Of a stretch of 64,000 nt of DNA, positions 31,046-41,822 are shown piece after piece; position 1 is the stretch's first letter; every line of letters begins with the position of its first letter. The DNA lies in the NCBI GenBank assembly GCA_029570205.1, contig JAKQSI010000109.1, positions 1 through 64,000 of the forward strand. The letters are read 5' to 3'. This stretch comes from Candidatus Omnitrophota bacterium. Its GTDB lineage: Bacteria > Hinthialibacterota > Hinthialibacteria > Hinthialibacterales > JAKPRU01. The notes beneath the pieces are model-generated. The model did not search any database and was not told the DNA's origin. It saw nothing but the letters and a program-made list of their open reading frames with translations. Both the position numbers and the translations under genes were made by a program.

Positions 31046-33622
31046 ATGTCTTTCTTTCTTCGGAGTATATGCAGCCTCTTGATTCCATATCTGCTTGTTG
31101 CAATCCCTCATCTCGCCGCCTGCGCCGCCTCGTCCGAGGAATATGCGCATCCCGCCGGCTATATTTCCGTAAAGACCGTTCTGGAGATGCGGCAGAAGTA
31201 TGAACAATACGACTGGGCGAAAGCACTCATTGCGGCCAAACAGGAACGATACAAGAAATGGGTGGACCAGGATATCGACAAGATTCTGCGCGTCATTCCG
31301 AAGAAGCGTGTGGGTGTCTATCATTTATTTACGTGCCCCGACAGCAAATCCACATTGACCTTTTCCCCATTCGAGGACGACAATTTTGTCAGCGCCAAAA
31401 CCGGCAAAGTATTTCGCGCCGATGAGTTCTCGCCTGTGTATCCAAAAGACAGTCCTCTTGCCGGGACCTATTATGACGGTTGGGGATGCTACTTCGTGAT
31501 CTACCTCGCCGATGCCTGTTGGCAATCGGGGATTCTGTACCAGGTGCTTCAGGAGCCAGGATACGCGGAATGGGTTTCCCGTGTGCTTCTTTATTACGCC
31601 GATGAGGTCGCACCGCGCCTCCAATATGACGAAGGATATGGCCCCCGCATTTTGATGTACGGTCGGGAGGGCGATGCGATCCACATGAACAACTTCGTGT
31701 GCGCCTACGAATTGGTTCGGGACGCCGGATTTCTTACCGAGAATGAAAAACGCCGGATCGAGGAGAATTTTATCCGCTACATTTTTGAGAAATCCATTCT
31801 CGATAAGGAATATCACGAGGATCACAACGACATTCCCCATTACCTTTGCGCGATCATCCATGCCGGGCTGGCGATTGGGGAACCGCGATACCTGGAGTTT
31901 GGATTTGGCTACGGGGACTATTCCCCCGAAACACGCTCCAGGCATCGCAGCCTGGCCTACATAGCCCGGCATCATTTTCACGACGACGGGGCGCATCTGG
32001 ATCGCTGTTCCGGCTACCATTTGTATGCCGCGACGCCGTTTTACCGGAATCTGTTTATCGGTCATAATCTTTCGGAAATGGATCCTGCACAATTCCCCGA
32101 GAGTATCTTCGACTATTTTTCACCGGATCATCCCCTATCCGAAAGGGTAAAAGGGGTGGCACGGTGGGCGTCTGCGATGTGTACCTATGACGGCATCCTC
32201 CCGACCGTCGGCGACTCCATGGCCGCGACAGCCAGTTGTATGCTCTACGACCCGTTCGGAGAGATCGCCTATCGGTATTGCGGATTCAAGGAACTCGGCC
32301 TGGAAGAGAAGATCATTCGTGGCGAACGCCCGGACAATGCGCTAATCGTCGGTGTCCCTCAGATTCAGACCCGTGGCATTCGGACACATTCCGCGAATCT
32401 CTCGTCCGGCTATGCGGTTCTGAAACAGAATAATATGTATATTGCTCTCAACGCCCTGCAACCCGGAGGAGGTCATCAGCACGCGGATCGGCTGAATCTC
32501 CTCATGTATCTGAATGATCGCTTAATGAGCATGGAAAAGGCTACACCTTACAACGATCTGAGCCTCCGAGACCAGGCCACGTACAGCTGGGCACATAACA
32601 CGGTTGTAGTGGATTCAACGACGCAGCCCCAGGGCGAGTCGCTCAAGCCGGAGCAGGTCCCCCAGATTACTCAATTTCTGGATCACCCGCAGATCGGCGT
32701 GATTCGTGCGGAAGGCGATCATCTGTATCCATCCACCACAATGTATCAGCGGACCGTTTTTCGGATCGACAATTTAATTGTGGATGTGTTCGGGGTCGAA
32801 GGCGGGAAGACACATGATTACATTTACCACAATTACGGCGAGCAATGCCAGGTGGATATTCCCCTGACGGAAGGGGGACCGTTCGATATATCGGACTACC
32901 TGGTCGGAGGAAACCCAACCTGCCATTGTGCAACTACAAAAGACATCTGCCGCGCAGTGTGGACATTCCCGGCAATACCCGATTCCGTGTACCCAATGCG
33001 GAAATTGCCCGCCGCAATGCACCTGACGCTGCTCCCGGATTCCGACAGAGAGACCACCGTATTCCATTTACTGACACAATATCCCGAGCAGGAAAGGCCA
33101 TTAACCAACACTTTCATGGCGCGACGCGCAGGGCCGAGAAACACGTTCGTTTCCGTTTTTGAATCGACTGTTGCGGATCATTCTTCTTCCGTTCTCCAGG
33201 CAGAATCCTCCAGCATCACCTATTCCGCAGTAAAGGTACAGATTTCAACCACGGACAAAGAAATCGCTATCGTGAACGTTTCGGGCAAGAATCCGATCAA
33301 TCAGAAAGGATTCGAAACGGATGCCGCTTACGCTGTGGTCGTCCGTTCGAAGCGGAACGCCGAGACGAATCTTATCGCACTGGGCGCGGGAACTTATTTC
33401 CGCATGGACGAAATCGCTGTTATTTTGGCAGACAATGCGCACCCCACGACCGCTGTATTCTCCGGAATCGGCGAGCAGGCGGATATACGATTCTCCGAGC
33501 CGGTGGAGTATATTACCCGCGCCGGGGGAAATGAATACCTGCAACCACGAACTGTAGAGGGTCTCGTACATTTTGCGAAAGATCAGTCACGTCATTTTCA
33601 GCAAAACACTGTCGCGAATTAG
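31046..33622 (+). CDS. Secreted heparinase II/III-like polysaccharide lyase
   Basis: 858 residues from the ATG at 31046 with AAGGA eight bases upstream; the frame is open 17 codons further into znuB but lacks a signal. A Sec signal (LLIPYLLVAIPHLAACAA) gives periplasmic or outside location. The N-terminal alpha/alpha toroid includes HEDHNDIPHYLCAIIHAG and DDGAHLDRCSGYHLYA, the Tyr-containing active-site region, and the C-terminal heparinase_II_III beta-sandwich begins near ALQPGGGHQHADRLNLLMYL with its conserved His. Such lyases cleave uronic-acid polymers (heparinoids, alginate oligomers); which one is not shown. The AlgE-like porin in the window makes uronate export/import worth considering. 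Confidence 0.85.
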   Translation: MSFFLRSICSLLIPYLLVAIPHLAACAASSEEYAHPAGYISVKTVLEMRQKYEQYDWAKALIAAKQERYKKWVDQDIDKILRVIPKKRVGVYHLFTCPDSKSTLTFSPFEDDNFVSAKTGKVFRADEFSPVYPKDSPLAGTYYDGWGCYFVIYLADACWQSGILYQVLQEPGYAEWVSRVLLYYADEVAPRLQYDEGYGPRILMYGREGDAIHMNNFVCAYELVRDAGFLTENEKRRIEENFIRYIFEKSILDKEYHEDHNDIPHYLCAIIHAGLAIGEPRYLEFGFGYGDYSPETRSRHRSLAYIARHHFHDDGAHLDRCSGYHLYAATPFYRNLFIGHNLSEMDPAQFPESIFDYFSPDHPLSERVKGVARWASAMCTYDGILPTVGDSMAATASCMLYDPFGEIAYRYCGFKELGLEEKIIRGERPDNALIVGVPQIQTRGIRTHSANLSSGYAVLKQNNMYIALNALQPGGGHQHADRLNLLMYLNDRLMSMEKATPYNDLSLRDQATYSWAHNTVVVDSTTQPQGESLKPEQVPQITQFLDHPQIGVIRAEGDHLYPSTTMYQRTVFRIDNLIVDVFGVEGGKTHDYIYHNYGEQCQVDIPLTEGGPFDISDYLVGGNPTCHCATTKDICRAVWTFPAIPDSVYPMRKLPAAMHLTLLPDSDRETTVFHLLTQYPEQERPLTNTFMARRAGPRNTFVSVFESTVADHSSSVLQAESSSITYSAVKVQISTTDKEIAIVNVSGKNPINQKGFETDAAYAVVVRSKRNAETNLIALGAGTYFRMDEIAVILADNAHPTTAVFSGIGEQADIRFSEPVEYITRAGGNEYLQPRTVEGLVHFAKDQSRHFQQNTVAN

Positions 33623-34059
33623 CGAAGCAAAGACCGTAAATTGCCCCTGCGGTGTATCAGGAAATCATTGTCGGCACTCCAGAACGGCTATATGGATGTG
33701 AGGTAGATATTCTTTTCTGTCTTGCTGCAAAAGCATGTTCGCAAAAGATCAGGAGGAGAAACATCACTGCGACAGGTATGGGAAGGCTCCTTGCATTAAC
33801 CGAGGTGGAATCGAGATAATACTTGATTGACAATAACAGACCGGAACGGGGAAAGTCCAGGTGTCGCGTACGGGGTTTTATGTCCGACGCTGTATATATA
33901 AAAGTACCCTATTGGATTACCTGTATGTATACAGATCGGTATTCGGCTAGATTTTGCATCTTACACTGTTGACAGACATTGTTGACCGTCCCGGAAAGAT
34001 GATACGATACGGTCTTCTATTATTCGCCAATTTCAGATGGGTCAATTGGAGGAGACGGC
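33623..34059. other. Intergenic region upstream of Gfo/Idh/MocA gene
   Basis: 437 bases, AT-richer than its surroundings, with no convincing gene. It contains an operator-like palindrome at 33921-33934 and a weak promoter-like pair TTGACC (33982-33987) and TACGAT (34003-34008) with a 15-base spacer. A GGAGG Shine-Dalgarno precedes the next ATG. Confidence 0.55.
33921..33934. promoter_or_regulatory. Operator-like palindrome CTGTATGTATACAG
   Basis: CTGTA-TGTA-TACAG is a short inverted repeat containing the TGTATACA core seen in several GntR/LacI-type operators. It is two bases shorter than an enterobacterial LexA box (CTGT-N8-ACAG). Located about 125 bases before the oxidoreductase start. The regulator is unknown. 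Confidence 0.3.
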
Positions 34060-34986
34060 ATGAGAATCGGTGTTGTGGAATTGGACACATCGCACCCGCA
34101 GAATTGGATTCCGATCGAGCGCAAGTTGGGCCATGAGGTAATCGGGGTCTGGGATGAGGGCGCAATACGTCCCAGGGGATTTGTCGAAGAGTTCGCGCGG
34201 GACCTTGGGGTACCGAGAGTGTTCCGGTCCCTGGAAGAGATGATCCCGGAGATCGACTGCGCGATTTTACACAGCTGTAATTGGGATATTCATGTCGAGC
34301 GTTCGCGTCCGTTTGTACACGCGGGGATCCCCGTACTGATCGACAAACCGATTGCAGGCAAGGTGAGAGACCTTGAACAGTTACGGGAATGGGTGCGCAA
34401 CAGCGCGAGGATTTGCGGCGGCTCCTCGCTGCGATTCTGCCGGGAAAGTTGCGACTGGTGGGCACGGCCGGTCGAGGAGCGAGGGACACCGATGACCGCG
34501 ATCTGCGGTTGCGGGACGGATGAATTCAACTACGGCATTCATGCGTACGCGCTGCTGAGCAGCGTGATGGGACCCGGCATTCAGAGTGTGCAGCACCTGT
34601 GCGGAGAAGAGCAGCGGCGAATCGCGGTAACTTGGGGTGACGGGCGCATGGGGATTCTGGTGATCGGTACAAATGGGGTCTGCCTGCCGTTCCACGGCAC
34701 CATCGTTACAGAAAAAAGCGTGACTCAATACCAGGTCGATTCATCCAGGATTTATGAGTCGCTTCTTCGCGCAGTCTTGCCGTACCTGGCGGGCGAAACG
34801 GATACGCCGCCGGTTCCATTTGATGCCTTGATTGAGCCGGAGCTCTGCGCAATCGCGGCGTTGCGATCCAGGAAACAGGGTGGGCGCGTCGTGCTGCTCT
34901 CGGAGTTGCCGGATGATGACGAGGGTTATGACGGAGCAGCGTTTGCGGCAGAATACCGCACAATCCGCAATCCAAAGGGGGAATAA
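34060..34986 (+). CDS. Gfo/Idh/MocA-like oxidoreductase
   Basis: 308 residues, on the short side. The Rossmann N-terminus reads MRIGVVELDTSHPQNWIP, with the Gly-rich loop degenerate (VELDTSH in place of GxGxxG). The signature IPVLIDKPIAGK retains Asp-Lys-Pro instead of Glu-Lys-Pro, and TDEFNYGIHAYALLSSVMG holds the His of the catalytic region. This pattern is seen in divergent family members whose dehydrogenase activity is uncertain. The gene has its own GGAGG ribosome site and stands alone, convergent with the DprA-like gene. Probably a sugar-related oxidoreductase. Confidence 0.82.
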   Translation: MRIGVVELDTSHPQNWIPIERKLGHEVIGVWDEGAIRPRGFVEEFARDLGVPRVFRSLEEMIPEIDCAILHSCNWDIHVERSRPFVHAGIPVLIDKPIAGKVRDLEQLREWVRNSARICGGSSLRFCRESCDWWARPVEERGTPMTAICGCGTDEFNYGIHAYALLSSVMGPGIQSVQHLCGEEQRRIAVTWGDGRMGILVIGTNGVCLPFHGTIVTEKSVTQYQVDSSRIYESLLRAVLPYLAGETDTPPVPFDALIEPELCAIAALRSRKQGGRVVLLSELPDDDEGYDGAAFAAEYRTIRNPKGE

Positions 34987-35078
34987 TCCTTTCCTGTACC
35001 CGGCTCACCGCTCCTGTCCCCCCGTTCCAACATTCCATCAGACAACATCCTATGAGAAATTAGTGTAGAAACGAAATC

Positions 35079-35103
35079 AGAGCAAAGCAGGACACCTTGC
35101 TCT
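35079..35103 (-). terminator. Stem-loop at the end of the RecQ-PRTase/DprA operon
   Basis: AGAGCAA (35079-35085) pairs with TTGCTCT (35097-35103), overlapping the DprA-like stop codon. On the minus strand the stem is followed by GATTTCGTTTCT, moderately U-rich. Plausible weak terminator of the operon. Confidence 0.4.
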
Positions 35104-36376
35104 ACTCCAACAAAGACAGCTGTGACTTCGGTGCGTATCTCACAGGTGTTCCGTGCTTTTCCAATACACCTTCCTTAACTAATCGTTGCAGCCACTTCCT
35201 TGCCTGCTTTTCCGATACACCCAAGTTCGCCGCCACCTCGCTAGCCGTTCTTGCGGAGGGTAGATTTCTGAGCATTTCTCGTGCCTTTGCAAACTCCTCG
35301 TCTACAGGTTTCTTGGACGATTCGGGGCAAGGTTTTTCGGCGGGCAATACCGGCGCGACTTCGGGAGCCTTTGCCGGTTCCTCAGAAAGCAGGGAAAAGA
35401 GATTGTCCTGTTCGGATGTAGTTTTTTTCGGACTCACCCGACTCGTTAGCAGTTTCCGCAAAGCCTCCGGGGTACCGGGATTCGGCCAAGCCGATGCGCC
35501 TTTCCGTTGAAGCGCCTCCATTTCCTTACCGGATTCCCCATCGGCACGAACATAAACCGGCACAAACCGGAGCCTTTCCAGCTGCTCGACCGCACCGGCC
35601 CATGTACCGCCCTTCTCGTAATCCGAACTGACGACCAGCGCTGCGTCCGCCAGCGCGTAAATTAGTTTATTCCGATACATAGCATACCCCACATTAAACA
35701 CGGCTAAAGGATCAAATGGTGAGATCAGGACCAGCCGATTCTCCATCCGAAAGTCGCGGTTTTCGCGATTCAACACAGCCCGCTCCAGGCTGTCTGCCAT
35801 GACCCCCACAACCTGCCCGCCGGCTTCCAGCGCGCCGCGCATGGCGGCCCGGTCAATCCCGCGCGCACCACCGGAGATCAGCGCACAACCGGCCTCCGCA
35901 GTTAGCCGTCCGATCCGCTCGGTGTACTCGACCGGCGCATCCCCCACATTCCGCGAACCGACAACTGCTAATCCGCCCGTATCCAGTATCGAGGCGTCTC
36001 CGCACCCATACAGAATCGGCGGCGCATTTTCCTCCATGCGCACCCTCAAACGATTCGGGTACTCGTCATCCATGTAACTGACTACCCAGATTCCCCGTGT
36101 CTGCCGGCGCTCAACCGCCTGACTCAGTAACAATCCCCGATCCAACAGGCGCTTCATGCGGTCGATATCAACCACAGTTCGGCATTCCTCCGGCAAAATC
36201 TCCAAATCGGAAGTCAGCAGGTCCGCCGGTTCCAGTTCGTAATCACGGAGTATTCGAGCCAACTTCTTGAATTCGCCCGGTGTGAGTAAATCGCCGGACG
36301 GTTCACCGTGCCCCAGGATCAGCGGCGCAGTCAGCAACAGAATGGCCTGCGTATTGGGGGAGATCTCTGCGATCAT
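35102..36376 (-). CDS. DprA/Smf-like Rossmann protein with C-terminal winged helix
   Basis: 424 residues. The DprA Rossmann core spans about 95-310: [29 protein letters not shown] (138-145), [14 protein letters not shown] (165-177) and [12 protein letters not shown] (251-262), matching the ssDNA/RecA-loading fold. A Pro/Glu-rich linker (about 320-360) leads to a winged helix ([23 protein letters not shown]). Its ATG overlaps the RecQ-phosphoribosyltransferase stop as ATGA, so both are made together. A lone DprA would serve transformation; the fixed pairing with a PRTase instead recalls ShosA, the DprA-like antitoxin of the ShosTA anti-phage system. Function as partner or antitoxin is inference. 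Confidence 0.88.
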
Positions 36377-38445
36377 GTTTTCTGTCCGATCAATGAAAGC
36401 GCCAATGGAAACACCTCACCGCTGCCGTGTGTGCGCAACAACCACGCCGCAATAGTCATAGTCCAGCGCGAGTCGACAATGTCATCTACCAGCAGAACAG
36501 GCCCTCTGGGCAGCCGCAGGGCACGGACCTCCAAAGACCCGTCGATATTACGTGCCTGTTGGGAACTGTTAGCCATTAATTTTTGCTTCGGTCTGTCGTC
36601 AGTTTTCTCAAACACCGCATAAAACGGCATTTTCAGAGCCGCTGCCAGCCGTTCGGCAAAATCGCGAACCGGTTCTGCATCTCGGGATGGAATACAGGTT
36701 ATCCATACCGGCATAGGCTCCGGATTCCACTCATGCACCAGGTCCACACAGGCTGATACCAGTTTATCGGAGAAACAGCCGTCGCGGTACTTACCCTCAC
36801 GGACCATCCTTCCCCACCCGGCATCTCCCCAGATACAGAGCGCCTTGCCGGGCTGCGCCTGAACGCCTGGAACGATATTCCCCTCCAGTTGGTACTTCGG
36901 CAAACCACCGATGGGCCATTCCTTCCGCGGCTTGATCAGGAGAGCACTTCGCCGAAGAAACGAGATCGCCTCCTGTACCAATGCCGGGTCAACCCATGTC
37001 GGCAGCGGCGATAAAACCGGCGGGCGAACTGTAGCCGGGTCCCCATCCAGCGCCCGAATAAGAAACTCCATGTGCCCCGATTTCAGATTCACATAATCCT
37101 GCATCTGTTGCTGTTCCACGCGACGAAGGCGGGTCAGTCGCTCCGCGCGCTGCCAGAATGTTTCGGGCAGAGTTGCCGCGGTCAGTTGCCATGTTGTACC
37201 CTGTTTCGCAATCGGCGCGGGCGACTCCAATGAAAGAAGCTGGATCGCTTTCTCGATGCGGCCCCGGCTGATATTAACCTTTACCATCAGTTCGGGAATC
37301 GAAAGGCCGTTGGGGGAGGCCTCCAGCGCCCCCAGTATCGATTGAACCTCTACCCGCGTCGGGAAAGCCGTCGTAATAAAGTAGTCGTTAATTTCCGCCT
37401 CTTCCTCACCGCTGAGAAGAACACCGTAAGCCGCATGAATCGCTCTGCCCGCCCGCCCTACCTGCTGATAATAGGCGACCACCGAGCCGGGAGCCTGATA
37501 ATGGATTACAAAAGCCAGGTCGGGTTTGTCGAATCCCATCCCCAGCGCCGTTGTCGCCACCAGCGCTTTTACGCGATTCTCCAAGAGCGCACGCTCCAGC
37601 CGAGGTCGATCCGCTCCTGTCTCGCCCGTATAAGAGGCCACATTGACGCCGCGCGACTTCAGCCAGTCCGCTACCTGTACCGCGTCGCGAACAGTTAGAG
37701 TATAAATGATCCCGTGACCCGGCAGCGCGGGTACATGTTCCGCCAGCCAGGCCATACGTTCCTCTTCCTTCGGCAGGCGAACAGTCTGAAGTGTAATGGA
37801 CGGACGGTTCAGGTCGCCGCAGGATACATGAAGCTGGGGTCCCAGCACGGCGCGCAAATCATCCATGACCCGGTTGTTTGCGGTAGCCGTTGTCGCCAGA
37901 AGACGCAGATTCGCGGGGAGGGTGCGAACGATGCGCTCCAATAGTCGATAGTGAGGGCGGAAATCATGTCCCCAGTCTGAAATGCAGTGGGCCTCGTCAA
38001 TCACAAGTAAAGAGATTCGCGCGGCGAGTCTTGCCAGTACCTTTGTGCGGAAATGTTCGTTCGCCAGCCGTTCCGGAGAGATCAGCAGGAAATCAATCTT
38101 GTTCTTTCGGATCTCGGTTTCAACATACTCCCATTCCTCCTGGTTGTCGGAGTTGATCGTAACTGCGCGGACTCCCATTCGTTCCGCCGCGGCGATCTGG
38201 TTACGCATTAGCGCCAGTAATGGAGAAATGAGCAGCGCCGGTCCCGCGCCCGCTTCACGCAACATCTTGGCGGCAATGAAATAGACGTAACTCTTCCCCC
38301 AGCCGGTTTTCTGTACCAGCAGTAACCGCCCGCGACCCTCCACAATATGTCGAATCGCTTCCTCCTGCCCTTCGCGAAACAGACCGTCCGCGCGTCCGAG
38401 TCCAAGTCGGAGAAGTTCAGAGGCTCTGGGGTGGTTGAAGGTCAT
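36373..38445 (-). CDS. RecQ-type helicase fused to a C-terminal phosphoribosyltransferase domain
   Basis: 690 residues. Superfamily 2 helicase motifs: [12 protein letters not shown] (Walker A, Lys51), [21 protein letters not shown] (DEAH 150-153), [21 protein letters not shown] and [10 protein letters not shown]. The usual RecQ zinc module and HRDC are not recognisable. Residues about 560-690 form a ComF-like type I PRTase: [20 protein letters not shown], then [16 protein letters not shown] (PRPP-binding motif, Asp654-Asp655), with SRWT in place of the canonical TGxT. Its start lies 3 bases after the broken hicA gene and its stop overlaps the DprA-like start. Likely DNA-acting defence or repair enzyme; what the PRTase modifies is unknown. 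Confidence 0.9.
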
Positions 38446-38448
38446 GGA

Positions 38449-38682
38449 TCAATCGTGATCATCCCATTCGTCAACGGAAACGCAGCAACCAATGATCGAT
38501 TCCACCTCACGGATCATCATCTTCAATTGCGGAACCGAATATTCTGAATTGGATGGAATACTCAAGCGATGTCCCTCAAAAATCATGAACTAATGGCGTG
38601 TGCGCGAGCACGGACCTTCGAATCCTAATTGACGTAACCTCTTGATAAATACGCTTCTCTTACATGCTTGCCATGGATGCAT
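38449..38682 (-). pseudogene. hicA: hicA toxin gene interrupted by an in-frame TAG
   Basis: Reading the minus strand from an ATG at 38680-38682, inside the hicB 3' end, gives MHPWQACKRSVFIKRLRQLG and then GFEGPCSRTRH. A TAG (38590-38592) interrupts at codon 31, and the frame continues FMIFEGHRLSIPSNSEYSV, PQLKMMIREVE... to TGA 38449-38451. The whole 77-codon frame matches HicA, the mRNA interferase of HicBA modules, where Gln usually occupies codon 31 (CAG to TAG would explain it). The break falls right after the conserved His of the dsRBD-like fold, so no active toxin is expected. TAG serves as an ordinary stop elsewhere in the window, so recoding is unlikely. Confidence 0.85.
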
Positions 38683-38929
38683 CGGCAGGTTCCTTGTTCA
38701 AATCATATCCCTCTATAACAGGAAGATGATGACCGAATTTGAGACCGACAAGAATCCAGTCTTCCAGCGTGGATTGCAGTTCGTGTTCGCATTCGCGTAA
38801 TGTGTCTCCAAAAGCGATCACACCTTTGCATTGCGGAATCCGACCGGAAAACGTACCGTCCTCCAACTTGTCATATTCCGCCAGGGACAGTACGGTTTCG
38901 ATATAACCCGTGAGGATGGATTTCAGCAT
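38660..38929 (-). CDS. hicB: HicB-family antitoxin
   Basis: 89 residues. The HicB fold is shown by ILTGYIETVLSLAEYDKLED, GTFSGRIPQCKGVIAFGDT and LRECEHELQSTLEDWILVGL, the partial RNase-H-like domain that binds HicA. Family members repress their own operon. AAAGGA lies six bases before the ATG. It is translated upstream of, and overlaps, the interrupted hicA frame, in the order hicB-hicA, and the operon continues into the RecQ-PRTase and DprA-like genes. Because hicA is broken, HicB may persist only as a regulator of the downstream genes. Confidence 0.9.
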   Translation of the reverse strand: MLKSILTGYIETVLSLAEYDKLEDGTFSGRIPQCKGVIAFGDTLRECEHELQSTLEDWILVGLKFGHHLPVIEGYDLNKEPADASMASM

Positions 38930-39008
38930 TGGCTATTCCTTTCTTTGAGCATATTAGCGGCACAGGCGGATCGGTGCGGAACGACAAGGGTTTGGGCAAG
39001 TTCTTTGA

Positions 39009-39509
39009 CTAGCTCCGCAAGATCCCTCTTATGGACGGACCTGACAAATAGATCATTTTCCAATGTTCACGTTTGAGAGACCAATCGAATATTCTCCTCT
39101 GTTCAATGGGGCCTTGTTTCGAATTATTAAATAACCTCCAATCCTCGCCGTTCGTCAGAACCTCCCAACGGATATTGGGATGACTGTAATTGCAGTAATC
39201 GCATACTTGACGCGCATCGGAGTCAGTCAATATGATCCCAGCTGCTTTGATTTCCAATGCAATATAAGGAACCTTGGCAGCGTAAAGAACATAATCTGCT
39301 CGCCCTTTCCCTCCAGCCTGTCCTGCGCTTTCTATATTCATTTCTGCTTCAATTCTGTTTTCCGCCTCCACATCCCATGGATCATAACCAATTGCGGCCA
39401 AAATCGGTTCACTCAGCAATCTCCTTGTTTCGACCTCTTTGGATGACTGCGTCTTCTGCAAATGTTCGAGGTTTCTTTCTGCAATTGCAAACCATGGGCG
39501 ATCGTTCAT
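39009..39509 (-). CDS. Lone HsdR N-terminal-type (PD-(D/E)XK) nuclease domain protein
   Basis: 166 residues from the ATG at 39507-39509 (AGGA nine bases upstream); an upstream extension lacks coding character. The sequence matches the N-terminal nuclease domain of type I restriction subunits: TRRLLSEPILAAIGYDPWD, GKGRADYVLYAAKVPYIALE followed by IKA. The Asp in RADY and the Glu-x-Lys in LEIKA form the PD-(D/E)XK centre. The helicase and translocase parts of HsdR are absent, and no hsdM or hsdS is nearby. Single-domain versions exist and are of unknown function. It precedes hicB by 80 bases. Confidence 0.85.
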   Translation of the reverse strand: MNDRPWFAIAERNLEHLQKTQSSKEVETRRLLSEPILAAIGYDPWDVEAENRIEAEMNIESAGQAGGKGRADYVLYAAKVPYIALEIKAAGIILTDSDARQVCDYCNYSHPNIRWEVLTNGEDWRLFNNSKQGPIEQRRIFDWSLKREHWKMIYLSGPSIRGILRS

Positions 39510-39742
39510 AATGGATCTTCCTCGCAATAGTTGTCTGTCTACCCATGAATTCTCTTGTTCTCCACAAGAACCGAATCGGGCTGTCACGGTCCATTCCGCA
39601 GCGATATACCGGCTTACGACGCATCTGCCCGGATCTTTCCCCTATTGGCCTTCCGGTCGACCACATCTGTCAGCGAAACTCGGTCATGTCCGTTTTCGAC
39701 GGAAAGACATTTCCCGGAAACGCCAATATAGTACCCTTCCCA

Positions 39743-40144
39743 TCAGCCAAGCGTCAACCCCTCAAGTTGACCGTCCGGCGGTTTTCGCATGCAAGATGTT
39801 CGCGCGGCGGGTTGTGGGCTCGCGCGTCTCGTTGTTTGCTGCGGTTCCAGTCTGATTTTCAGCGTGCAGCCCACGGCCTCGGCGTACTTCTTGAGTGACG
39901 CCAATGAGGGCGCATGTCTGTTGGCCCCTTCAAGCCGTGAGACAGCGCTCTTCGTTGTTCCCATGCGATGCGCAACGGCTTCCTGCGTGAGTCCTGCACG
40001 GCTGCGAGCCGACAACATTTCCCGCGCAAGGGCATATTCATCTTCGAGGGCATTGTATGCCTCTTGAAATCCTTTACGCTTCGACGCCTTTTCAAGAAAG
40101 GCTTTGTGATCGTGCGGAACAGGGTCGTATTGAATTCGTGGCAT
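39743..40144 (-). CDS. XRE-family HTH regulator (HigA/antitoxin-like)
   Basis: 133 residues. The HTH_3 domain lies centrally (ARSRAGLTQEAVAHRMGTTK, SAVSRLEGANRHAPSLASLK) and the C-terminal segment YAEAVGCTLKIRLEPQ is characteristic of HigA2-type antitoxins that follow a RelE/HigB toxin. No toxin gene is adjacent on either side, so it is an orphan or regulates neighbours such as the nuclease/HicB run. The long Lys/Asp-rich N-terminus (MPRIQYDPVPHDHKAFLEKA) is typical of this subfamily. Residues after about 103 look poorly conserved. Confidence 0.85.
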   Translation of the reverse strand: MPRIQYDPVPHDHKAFLEKASKRKGFQEAYNALEDEYALAREMLSARSRAGLTQEAVAHRMGTTKSAVSRLEGANRHAPSLASLKKYAEAVGCTLKIRLEPQQTTRRASPQPAARTSCMRKPPDGQLEGLTLG

Positions 40145-40163
40145 CTGTTCTCTCCTTCATCCT

Positions 40164-40760
40164 TCATCCCCCCTCCTTCCCAATCCTCACCAAAATTTCC
40201 CGCCCCCCGGCAATCGGTTCAAATCTATCTACGGAATAAGGTATGAGAATTTGCCGCAGAGTCTCTTCGTTAAAACGATGCGGAGCCTCGCCGGTGCCGG
40301 GATCGGTAAACCGTCGGCCAAGCCGGGAAAGTAACGGGTTCTGTGATGTGGAAAGATTCCGTACCGGCTCCGTTAATATAACACATTTCCGCGCCGCATC
40401 AACTAATTTACGCAAGATATTTTCGTGACTCGGAATGAATTGGTACAGAGAGGCCTGCATGAGTATAATGTCCGCTTCGGGAATCGGATCGAAACGGACA
40501 TCGCACACTTGCGCATTCACCCCGCGCCGCGCCAGCCAGTGAACAAACTTCGCGTTAATATCCAATCCGAGGTAGTCGATATGTCGCGTTGATAGAAATC
40601 GCCGGTACAGGTAGCCGTCGCCGCAACAGACATCTGTGAGACTGACCCCATCGGGAATCGCATCGGCAACGGCCCGGAACCGTTCCTCAAACCATCCGCC
40701 GTACACAATCCGCATGGCAAGTTGATAGAGAACAGGATGCCGGTATATGGGGCTTTTCAC
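40164..40760 (-). CDS. Class I SAM-dependent methyltransferase
   Basis: 198 residues. The SAM-binding motif I is SLTDVCCGDGYLYRRFL, an acidic residue (LGLDIN) follows strand 2, and EADIILMQASLYQF ends strand 4, the normal order for class I enzymes. The N-terminus (YRHPVLYQLAMRIVYGGWFEER) resembles small-molecule or lipid methyltransferases of unassigned function. It lies 6 bases after the gpsA stop, so it is expressed with that gene, hinting at lipid-related chemistry. Substrate unknown. Confidence 0.88.
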   Translation of the reverse strand: MKSPIYRHPVLYQLAMRIVYGGWFEERFRAVADAIPDGVSLTDVCCGDGYLYRRFLSTRHIDYLGLDINAKFVHWLARRGVNAQVCDVRFDPIPEADIILMQASLYQFIPSHENILRKLVDAARKCVILTEPVRNLSTSQNPLLSRLGRRFTDPGTGEAPHRFNEETLRQILIPYSVDRFEPIAGGREILVRIGKEGG

Positions 40761-40766
40761 CGATTC

Positions 40767-41822
40767 TCAACCTTGCGCTACACGTTGAAGCGTGTCCTTC
40801 ATCCCGTGCCATTCGGCTTTGCGTTCTCGACCGAGCAGTCGGCGGACAGATTCCCCCGGTTCGCTTCCATGCAGCAGGATTCGAATCACCTCGGTCATGA
40901 TCGGCATTTCATCTTCGGGAACAGGCTTGTGACTGTCGAGCGCGCGGGAGGTCTCGATCCCCTCCACCACCATCCCGACCCTCCGCTCGGCTTCCTGGGG
41001 ATCATGCCCCTGGGCAAGCAGTTCGCCCATTTTCCGGTTGCGGCTATGGCGGCTGGTGCAGGTAACTACCAGATCCCCCAAGCCGGACAGCCCAAAAAAA
41101 GTCTCCGGTCGCGCCCCGCACACAACCCCCACGCGGCTCAGTTCCAGGAGACCCCGCGTAATCAAGGCGGCCCGCGTGTTGTCTCCGTATCCGAGACCGT
41201 CGGAAATCCCCACCGCAATGGCCATGACATTTTTCAGCGCGCCTCCCAGCTGTGTTCCCAGCGGGTCCGTGCCGGTATAGACTCGAAATTCGGGACGCTG
41301 AAGGAGCCGCTGCGCCTGTTCCGCCACGATGATATCCGTCGATGCCGCAACCACAGCGGTCGGGATGTGCTGAACAACCTCCTCCGCATGGCTGGGACCG
41401 GACAGCGCGACAAACCCGGCCGGGTCGTCGTTTGCCCAGGCCTCGGCCAGCAGATCGGTCATGGTGCGCAAGGTCCCGACTTGCAGGCCCTTGGTCGCGG
41501 AAATTATCAGCCGGCCTTTCAATAGCCCCCTCCCGCCGCATTGCTCCGCGACAGGTTTCATAAAAGCGGACGGGACCGCCACCAGCACAACGTCCGCCCG
41601 GGACAGGCAGGCATAGAGATCGCTGGTGATCTCGATGGAGTCCGGTATTCGGGCGCCCGGAAGGCGCGGCTCAAGGGAACGGTTTTCTCGCAGGTGTTCG
41701 GCATCGCTCTCCAAATGCGCCCAGATCGAGGCCGTACACCCGTTGGCATCCAACAGACATGCCAGCGCCACACCCCATGATCCGGCTCCCAGAACCGCCA
41801 CAAACGGATTTTGATTCTTCAT
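40767..41822 (-). CDS. gpsA: NAD(P)H-dependent glycerol-3-phosphate dehydrogenase
   Basis: Reduces dihydroxyacetone phosphate to glycerol 3-phosphate for phospholipid synthesis. 351 residues from the ATG at 41820-41822 (MKNQNPFVAVLGAGSWG); an alternative ATG 21 bases upstream is also possible and has GGGAG nearby. Motifs: GAGSWGVALA, VVLVAVPSAFM, IISATKGL, FVALSGPSHAEEV, LGGALKNVMAIAVGISDGLG (catalytic Lys), TRAALITRGLLE and GLSGLGDLVVTCTS. It is divergent from the LptG-like gene with about 100 bases between and is followed at once by a methyltransferase. Confidence 0.96.
   Translation of the reverse strand: MKNQNPFVAVLGAGSWGVALACLLDANGCTASIWAHLESDAEHLRENRSLEPRLPGARIPDSIEITSDLYACLSRADVVLVAVPSAFMKPVAEQCGGRGLLKGRLIISATKGLQVGTLRTMTDLLAEAWANDDPAGFVALSGPSHAEEVVQHIPTAVVAASTDIIVAEQAQRLLQRPEFRVYTGTDPLGTQLGGALKNVMAIAVGISDGLGYGDNTRAALITRGLLELSRVGVVCGARPETFFGLSGLGDLVVTCTSRHSRNRKMGELLAQGHDPQEAERRVGMVVEGIETSRALDSHKPVPEDEMPIMTEVIRILLHGSEPGESVRRLLGRERKAEWHGMKDTLQRVAQG

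Follow-up and report, generated by a model that had tools for sequence, protein, structure and literature searches.

The pair of overlapping genes studied here is, judged by its sequence, a full-length canonical member of the known PsyrTA toxin-antitoxin family, which is the same as RqlHI. Both genes lie on the minus strand of the window, by which the whole analysed stretch of 64,000 nucleotides is meant. The toxin, PsyrT or RqlH (36373..38445), is a predicted RecQ-like helicase of 690 aa with a PRTase (phosphoribosyltransferase) domain, and the antitoxin, PsyrA or RqlI (35102..36376), is a predicted DprA-like protein of 424 aa with a C-terminal winged helix. Each frame begins with ATG, and the assignments come from PADLOC and AF2 models and, for the toxin, from homology to the E. 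coli protein. The coordinates and the stop/start overlap given in the earlier note on this DNA proved exact: the minus-strand sequence ATGA holds the stop of the toxin gene and the start of the partner gene, which overlap by 4 nt. The PADLOC model of PsyrT matches residues 1-684 of the toxin (E=8.1e-266), the PsyrA model matches residues 5-415 of the partner (E=2.4e-125), and the two models also match every homologue in the alignments. Chance ORFs are excluded by these full-length family matches, by the 82-91% conservation of the DNA of the pair in two genus-mates and by a gene order that is kept across many phyla, namely in 70 of the 75 loci that could be tested among the best 80 of more than 590. 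The PsyrTA/RqlHI system has already been described, and the pair itself adds one more host lineage; any wider interest would lie in the comparison that it opens.

The proposal that one polypeptide joins a RecQ-type SF2 motor to a C-terminal PRTase was borne out by several kinds of profile matches. The helicase core was identified at residues 20-346 (37408..38388, minus strand) with Pfam DEAD/Helicase_C and Foldseek, with K51 in the Walker A motif and D150 in the DEAH motif. The RecQ subfamily model TIGR00614 scores 229 bits and passes its cut-off of 219.8, and the best Foldseek matches of the core are the RecQ structures 4tmu and 1oyw. A canonical RecQ was ruled out by the equivalog TIGR01389, which reaches 259 bits against a cut-off of 640. 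The toxin departs from the normal RecQ layout at its C-terminal end, where a PRTase is fused to the RecQ-like SF2 helicase, and the AF2 model of the whole chain has a mean pLDDT of 90.5. The alignment places a middle region at residues 350-504 (36934..37398, minus strand), from which the four-cysteine (CGxCxxC) module is missing. Such a cysteine cluster (C-LM ... CGxCxxC) follows the helicase in 45 of the 68 aligned toxins and is absent from 23, namely the window toxin and 22 relatives. From its sequence, the cluster is expected to be a zinc module, and its presence or absence amounts to one single change on the toxin tree.

The C-terminal PRTase domain comprises residues 505-690 (36376..36933, minus strand), and a structural and profile check confirmed its identity at the level of the family. 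The match of Pfam Pribosyltran to the window toxin alone is weak (E=0.0074); 31 of 34 members of the toxin family match this model, with a best E of 5.5e-8. Searched against the PDB, the family profile hits PRPP synthetases and HGPRTs, its DDVVDSRWT loop aligns with the DDIIDTAGT loop of PRPP synthetase, and the order of strands and helices in the AF2 model agrees with a PRTase. The PRPP-binding motif spans residues 648-662. Alignment to E. coli RqlH places the PRPP-binding loop itself, DDIVDSRWT, at residues 654-662 (36460..36486, minus strand), where D655 corresponds to D663 of E. coli. This loop is divergent, with R in the place of G and then W; D654 and W661 are invariant in the 68 toxin homologues.

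The second protein had been read as DprA-like with a C-terminal winged helix, and this reading also holds. Its DprA Rossmann (SLOG) core is formed by residues 92-294 (35495..36103, minus strand; Pfam DNA_processg_A, 1e-34). The AF2 model (pLDDT 88.9) shows, in order, helices, the Rossmann core, a disordered linker (residues 325-354) and a winged helix at residues 357-416 (35129..35308, minus strand), and HTH profiles match the C-terminus weakly. A fold search with this model returned DprA (3uqz) as the best PDB match, followed by ShosA (8zva). The partner is not the housekeeping DprA: on TIGR00732 it scores 83.6 bits where 191 are required, and the same genome carries a canonical dprA separately (G000:C71). 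The winged helix is missing in 18 of 64 homologous partners, some of which may be assembly frameshifts. This natural loss fits the observation that RqlI without its HTH region is still protective in E. coli (PMC4670107).

The pair occurs in two further genomes of the same genus as the window genome. In the same-order genomes searched, no full toxin was found and there were helicase-domain matches only, so the gene is patchy. Its near relatives, at 60-75% identity, belong to Nitrospirae, Gammaproteobacteria, Chloroflexi, Chlorobiaceae, Spirochaetaceae, Mycobacterium and others, and the occurrence of such close relatives across many phyla suggests horizontal spread. Linkage was studied in the best 80 of more than 590 loci, a sample biased to near relatives, in which five loci are cut by contig ends. 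Within this sample, the partner lies downstream of the toxin in all testable loci except five without a detectable partner, the spacing is at most 60 nt in 62 of 65 measured loci, and ATGA occurs in 25. The divergence of toxins and that of partners are correlated (r=0.85, reached by none of 1000 permutations; 0.74 and 0.75 within the two clades), a correlation to which the kinship of the host organisms contributes.

Some individual loci deserve mention. Mycobacterium colombiense (L021) has a linked pair of the cysteine-free clade; mycobacterial and other Gram-positive RqlH proteins have been described as solo (PMC4670107). A haloarchaeal plasmid of Halanaeroarchaeum sulfurireducens (L104 6911-8992) encodes a full-length RqlH with no annotated DprA-like neighbour. 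In a Gemmatimonadota MAG (L038 754-6411, plus strand), PsyrT forms the C-terminal end of an open frame of 1885 codons, which may be a fusion to a long N-terminal protein or may reflect a missing stop.

Experimental work on relatives gives these sequences a functional context. The window toxin is 47% identical to RqlH of E. coli EC958 over 677 aligned residues, and the partners are 34% identical; in EC958, rqlHI is placed between gntU and yhgN. Residue numbers of the E. coli F11 mutants hold for EC958 without any shift; K49, D148 and D663 are therefore the counterparts of K51, D150 and D655 in the window toxin, and all three are conserved. E. coli RqlH without RqlI causes the SOS response, filamentation, mutation and growth arrest, its toxicity is lost after deletion of residues 509-690 or with D663A, and the co-precipitation of RqlI with RqlH requires the PRTase domain (PMC4670107). 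Toxicity of the helicase protein alone and a partner that neutralises and binds it have been demonstrated only for the relatives from E. coli (PMC4670107) and P. syringae. Toxicity, active-site dependence and direct partner binding were published for the PsyrTA/RqlHI family in 2013-2015. The mechanistic idea of the earlier note, a PRTase effector restrained by a DprA-like partner, is largely correct and matches E. coli RqlHI; it was already known (PMC4670107).

The reading preferred here, and considered probable, is that the DprA-like partner of the PsyrTA operon silences the PRTase, the release of which would damage nucleotide metabolism and cause DNA stress, with abortive defence as its likely use. 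The toxin would be a 3'-5' DNA translocase or helicase of the RecQ family that carries the PRTase at its C-terminus, and the product of the overlapping downstream gene would bind the PRTase domain and keep it silent. Once the balance tips, the targets of the PRTase may be PRPP and nucleotides, probably purines as in the reports on ShosT, or else nucleobases in DNA that the helicase has opened; arrest and filamentation would follow, together with DNA damage and induction of the SOS response. Phages or other invading DNA could be sensed through the helicase and the DprA-like protein. Points against this reading are the divergence of the PRPP loop, the window flanks with no complete second defence system, the failure of PsyrTA from E. 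coli NILS69 to protect against phages (PMC12409345), the under-representation of PsyrTA in the defence islands of MAGs (PMC10924106) and the unchanged fitness of E. coli after deletion of both rqlH and rqlI (PMC4670107). In relatives, PRTase toxicity, the need for the Asp equivalent to D655, direct partner binding and helicase activity are established. The same behaviour in the window organism, like the substrate, the trigger and the defence role, is presumed by analogy with them, and domain homology suggests that the chemistry of ShosT may carry over to PsyrT.

The genomic surroundings had been described as a defence neighbourhood, and this is true of the window only in part. An XRE regulator, a HicB-like gene (38660-38929) and an orphan protein with an HsdR N-terminal domain are indeed present, but hicA is broken and there is little around the pair that points to defence. 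The hicA remnant (38446-38673, minus strand), which directly follows the HicB-like gene, is a HicA-like frame that has no start codon and is interrupted by an in-frame TAG; HicBA is therefore not intact and HicB is orphaned. The stand-alone HsdR N-terminal domain protein (192 aa; 39009-39587, minus strand; HSDR_N_2, 6e-9) has no type I RM partners near it, and no complete second defence system was found in the flanks of the window. In one genus-mate, G001, unrelated DNA with a 416-aa ORF that has no Pfam match takes the place of the segment that lies between PsyrT and the conserved XRE/methyltransferase genes (L107 2048-3591, window 38446-39743); this marks a variable slot beside the pair. No mobile-element boundaries could be assigned around the pair: the window contains no tRNA genes, no convincing long flanking repeats were seen, and the genus-mates share parts of both flanks, so that no insertion site is defined. 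There are no Rfam matches at 33500-41000.

In other genomes, the neighbours of the pair are richer in defence genes. At 1e-20, the 150 genes that lie no further than about 1.8 kb from it match 177 PADLOC models, among them type I RM subunits, SoFic and WYL; 129 control genes, taken from stretches picked arbitrarily and mostly in genomes of the window's class, match three, all HerA with one match each. These figures indicate a direction and not a size, because models and not proteins are counted (one RM subunit matches many) and the genomes differ. Pfam adds Uma2, GmrSD, BrxL, PIN and Fic among the neighbours. On an E. coli plasmid, the pair lies inside an hsdM-hsdS-rqlH-dprA-hsdR cluster; in the chromosome of E. 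coli AVS0935 (L110 8001-12772), which has the same RM cluster, rqlH is split by an IS3 element and the dprA-like antitoxin is intact. The enrichment for defence genes around such pairs, which the earlier note had proposed to survey, is seen in these loci. It is qualified by a MAG survey that found PsyrTA to be under-represented in defence islands; inside them, however, its co-localisation with other systems was significant (PMC10924106). Genomic context makes an anti-phage role of the family plausible; in one direct test, no protection against phages by PsyrTA from E. coli NILS69 was detected, either in this native host or on overexpression in K-12 (PMC12409345).

The main rival to this reading is a housekeeping DNA-repair pair, which is considered unlikely. 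Here the helicase would replace a missing RecQ, the DprA-like protein would load recombination factors, the PRTase would be a regulatory ligand sensor, and toxicity would appear only if the subunits are unbalanced. It has to be taken seriously because the genus lacks a canonical RecQ (none was found at E<=1e-100 in the window genome and the two genus-mates) and because solo copies are widespread in Actinomycetes, where 196 of 296 genomes have a full-length relative, in a manner like that of a core gene, and the partner is almost always missing in the loci examined. Russell and Mulvey have also proposed a cooperative function of RqlH and RqlI on DNA (PMC4670107). However, several same-order genomes have neither RecQ nor PsyrT, which indicates that the function is dispensable. 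Outside Actinomycetes the distribution is patchy (28 of 301 in the phylum of locus L040), the neighbours of the pair are rich in RM and other defence models, and the double deletion of rqlH and rqlI in E. coli has no measurable effect on fitness (PMC4670107).

Another explanation concerns the chemistry and is less probable still. In the model of Russell and Mulvey from 2015, the PRTase would not deplete nucleotides or PRPP but modify bases where the helicase has opened the DNA, and the DprA-like protein would then resolve the lesion. The fusion of the PRTase to a helicase and the SOS and mutator phenotypes agree with it, as does the finding that the PRTase domain expressed alone is non-toxic in E. 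coli, which implies a contribution of the helicase part (PMC4670107). Nevertheless, a modified base has never been reported. Helicase-dead RqlH mutants lose viability and are still filamentous, and K49A/D663A brings titres back, so helicase activity seems to restrain the PRTase and not to deliver it (PMC4670107). In addition, ShosT, a PRTase free of any helicase, already causes DNA damage and duplications as well as filamentation, as described in a review of Pu et al. 2025 (PMC12593503). A module for competence or DNA uptake, comparable to ComFA/ComFC with DprA, is highly improbable, even though the PRTase resembles ComF, the partner resembles DprA and the PsyrT profile also picks up ComF-length PRTase ORFs in genomes. 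It was ruled out by the absence of competence genes from the commonest neighbour families of the pair; moreover, the window genome keeps a canonical DprA elsewhere, and E. coli, which is not naturally competent, has the pair in many strains.

Toxins that have a partner were also compared with those that do not. With 86 further loci added, the contrast set comprises 87 partner-linked and 54 solo toxins; solo means no partner at the locus, so that a partner elsewhere in those genomes is possible, and the solo set is mostly from Actinobacteria. None of the 87 linked toxins departs from Q621, N633 or S659, which are retained in 17, 16 and 31 of the 54 solo toxins, respectively. D658, which by motif alignment may occupy the place of the HPRT-type Asp adjoining the base, is kept in 81 of 87 linked and 37 of 54 solo toxins (Fisher p=2.6e-4, with relatedness ignored). 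Among the 101 positions that are at least 97% conserved in linked toxins, conservation falls below 60% in solo toxins at 4 of 17 in the PRTase domain and at 2 of 84 elsewhere. The contrast is a lead and not a result, because there are only about seven changes of partner state on the tree, the five pairs available to an independent-pairs test (D658 and presence of the partner) are too few for significance, and the dominance of Actinobacteria in the solo set lets phylogeny confound it. The defining RqlHI paper reported no major sequence difference between linked and solo groups (PMC4670107), so the contrast is new if better sampling upholds it.

A tentative extension is that there are two functional kinds of RqlH-type helicase, a view held to be possible and somewhat doubtful. 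In the linked toxins, Q621, N633, S659 and mostly D658 would be held fixed by the toxic reaction or because the antitoxin binds there. In the solo helicases, mainly of Actinobacteria, those residues would have been released and the PRTase would no longer be a toxin. The window toxin would belong to the cysteine-free clade, with its own coupling of helicase and PRTase. The substrate of the RqlH PRTase has been a question since 2015, and four residues kept in linked and relaxed in solo toxins give a few testable candidates for a role in catalysis or in contact with the antitoxin.

Several known systems resemble the pair. ShosTA (Kimelman 2012; Rousset 2022; Pu 2025) likewise combines a PRTase toxin with a DprA-like antitoxin, but ShosT has no helicase, whereas the window toxin has one. 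The earlier note had proposed a ShosTA-like module; distant homology to ShosTA does exist on both sides, but the pair is not a new ShosTA-like variant and is a canonical PsyrTA/RqlHI instead. The ShosA profile matches the partner at E=1e-25, and the ShosT profile matches the window PRTase domain weakly (0.023) but 31 of 34 toxin family members. An assignment to ShosTA itself was ruled out by the full RecQ motor and by the far better PsyrT match. DpdF of the dpd (7-deazaguanine DNA) system has a helicase region and a C-terminal domain homologous to the window toxin; the NCBIfam DpdF equivalog falls well short of its cut-off, with 168.8 against 550 bits, and no dpd genes were found among the window neighbours examined. 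For ShosT, the review of Pu et al. 2025 describes phosphoribosyltransferase and pyrophosphatase activities with altered purine pools, DNA binding by ShosA and T7 Gp0.7 as the trigger (PMC12593503).

The closest counterparts are the RqlH proteins and PsyrTA. RqlH of Mycobacterium smegmatis shares the RecQ-like motor and PRTase domain with the window toxin and is a solo gene there without a DprA-like partner, whereas the window toxin is partnered. RqlH of the Shuman type is defined by a tetracysteine zinc module between helicase and PRTase. Such a module was reportedly found in the M. smegmatis protein by Ordonez, Unciuleac and Shuman in 2012, and the window toxin lacks it. PsyrTA, a system listed in PADLOC and DefenseFinder, was reportedly introduced by Sberro et al. 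in 2013 as a toxin-antitoxin system of Pseudomonas syringae. Helicase activity has been shown for M. smegmatis RqlH (Ordonez, Unciuleac and Shuman 2012, cited in PMC4670107). The ATPase and PRTase residues tested in RqlHI of extraintestinal E. coli (Russell and Mulvey 2015, PMC4670107) are conserved in the window pair; the genes overlap by 94 nt in E. coli and by 4 nt in the window, and EC958 RqlH has the cysteine cluster CGKCSSC, which is absent from the window toxin. PsyrTA agrees with the window pair in having both genes at full length, in the same order and with the same domain layout, and the window pair differs from it by a new host lineage and by its place in the clade without the four-cysteine module.
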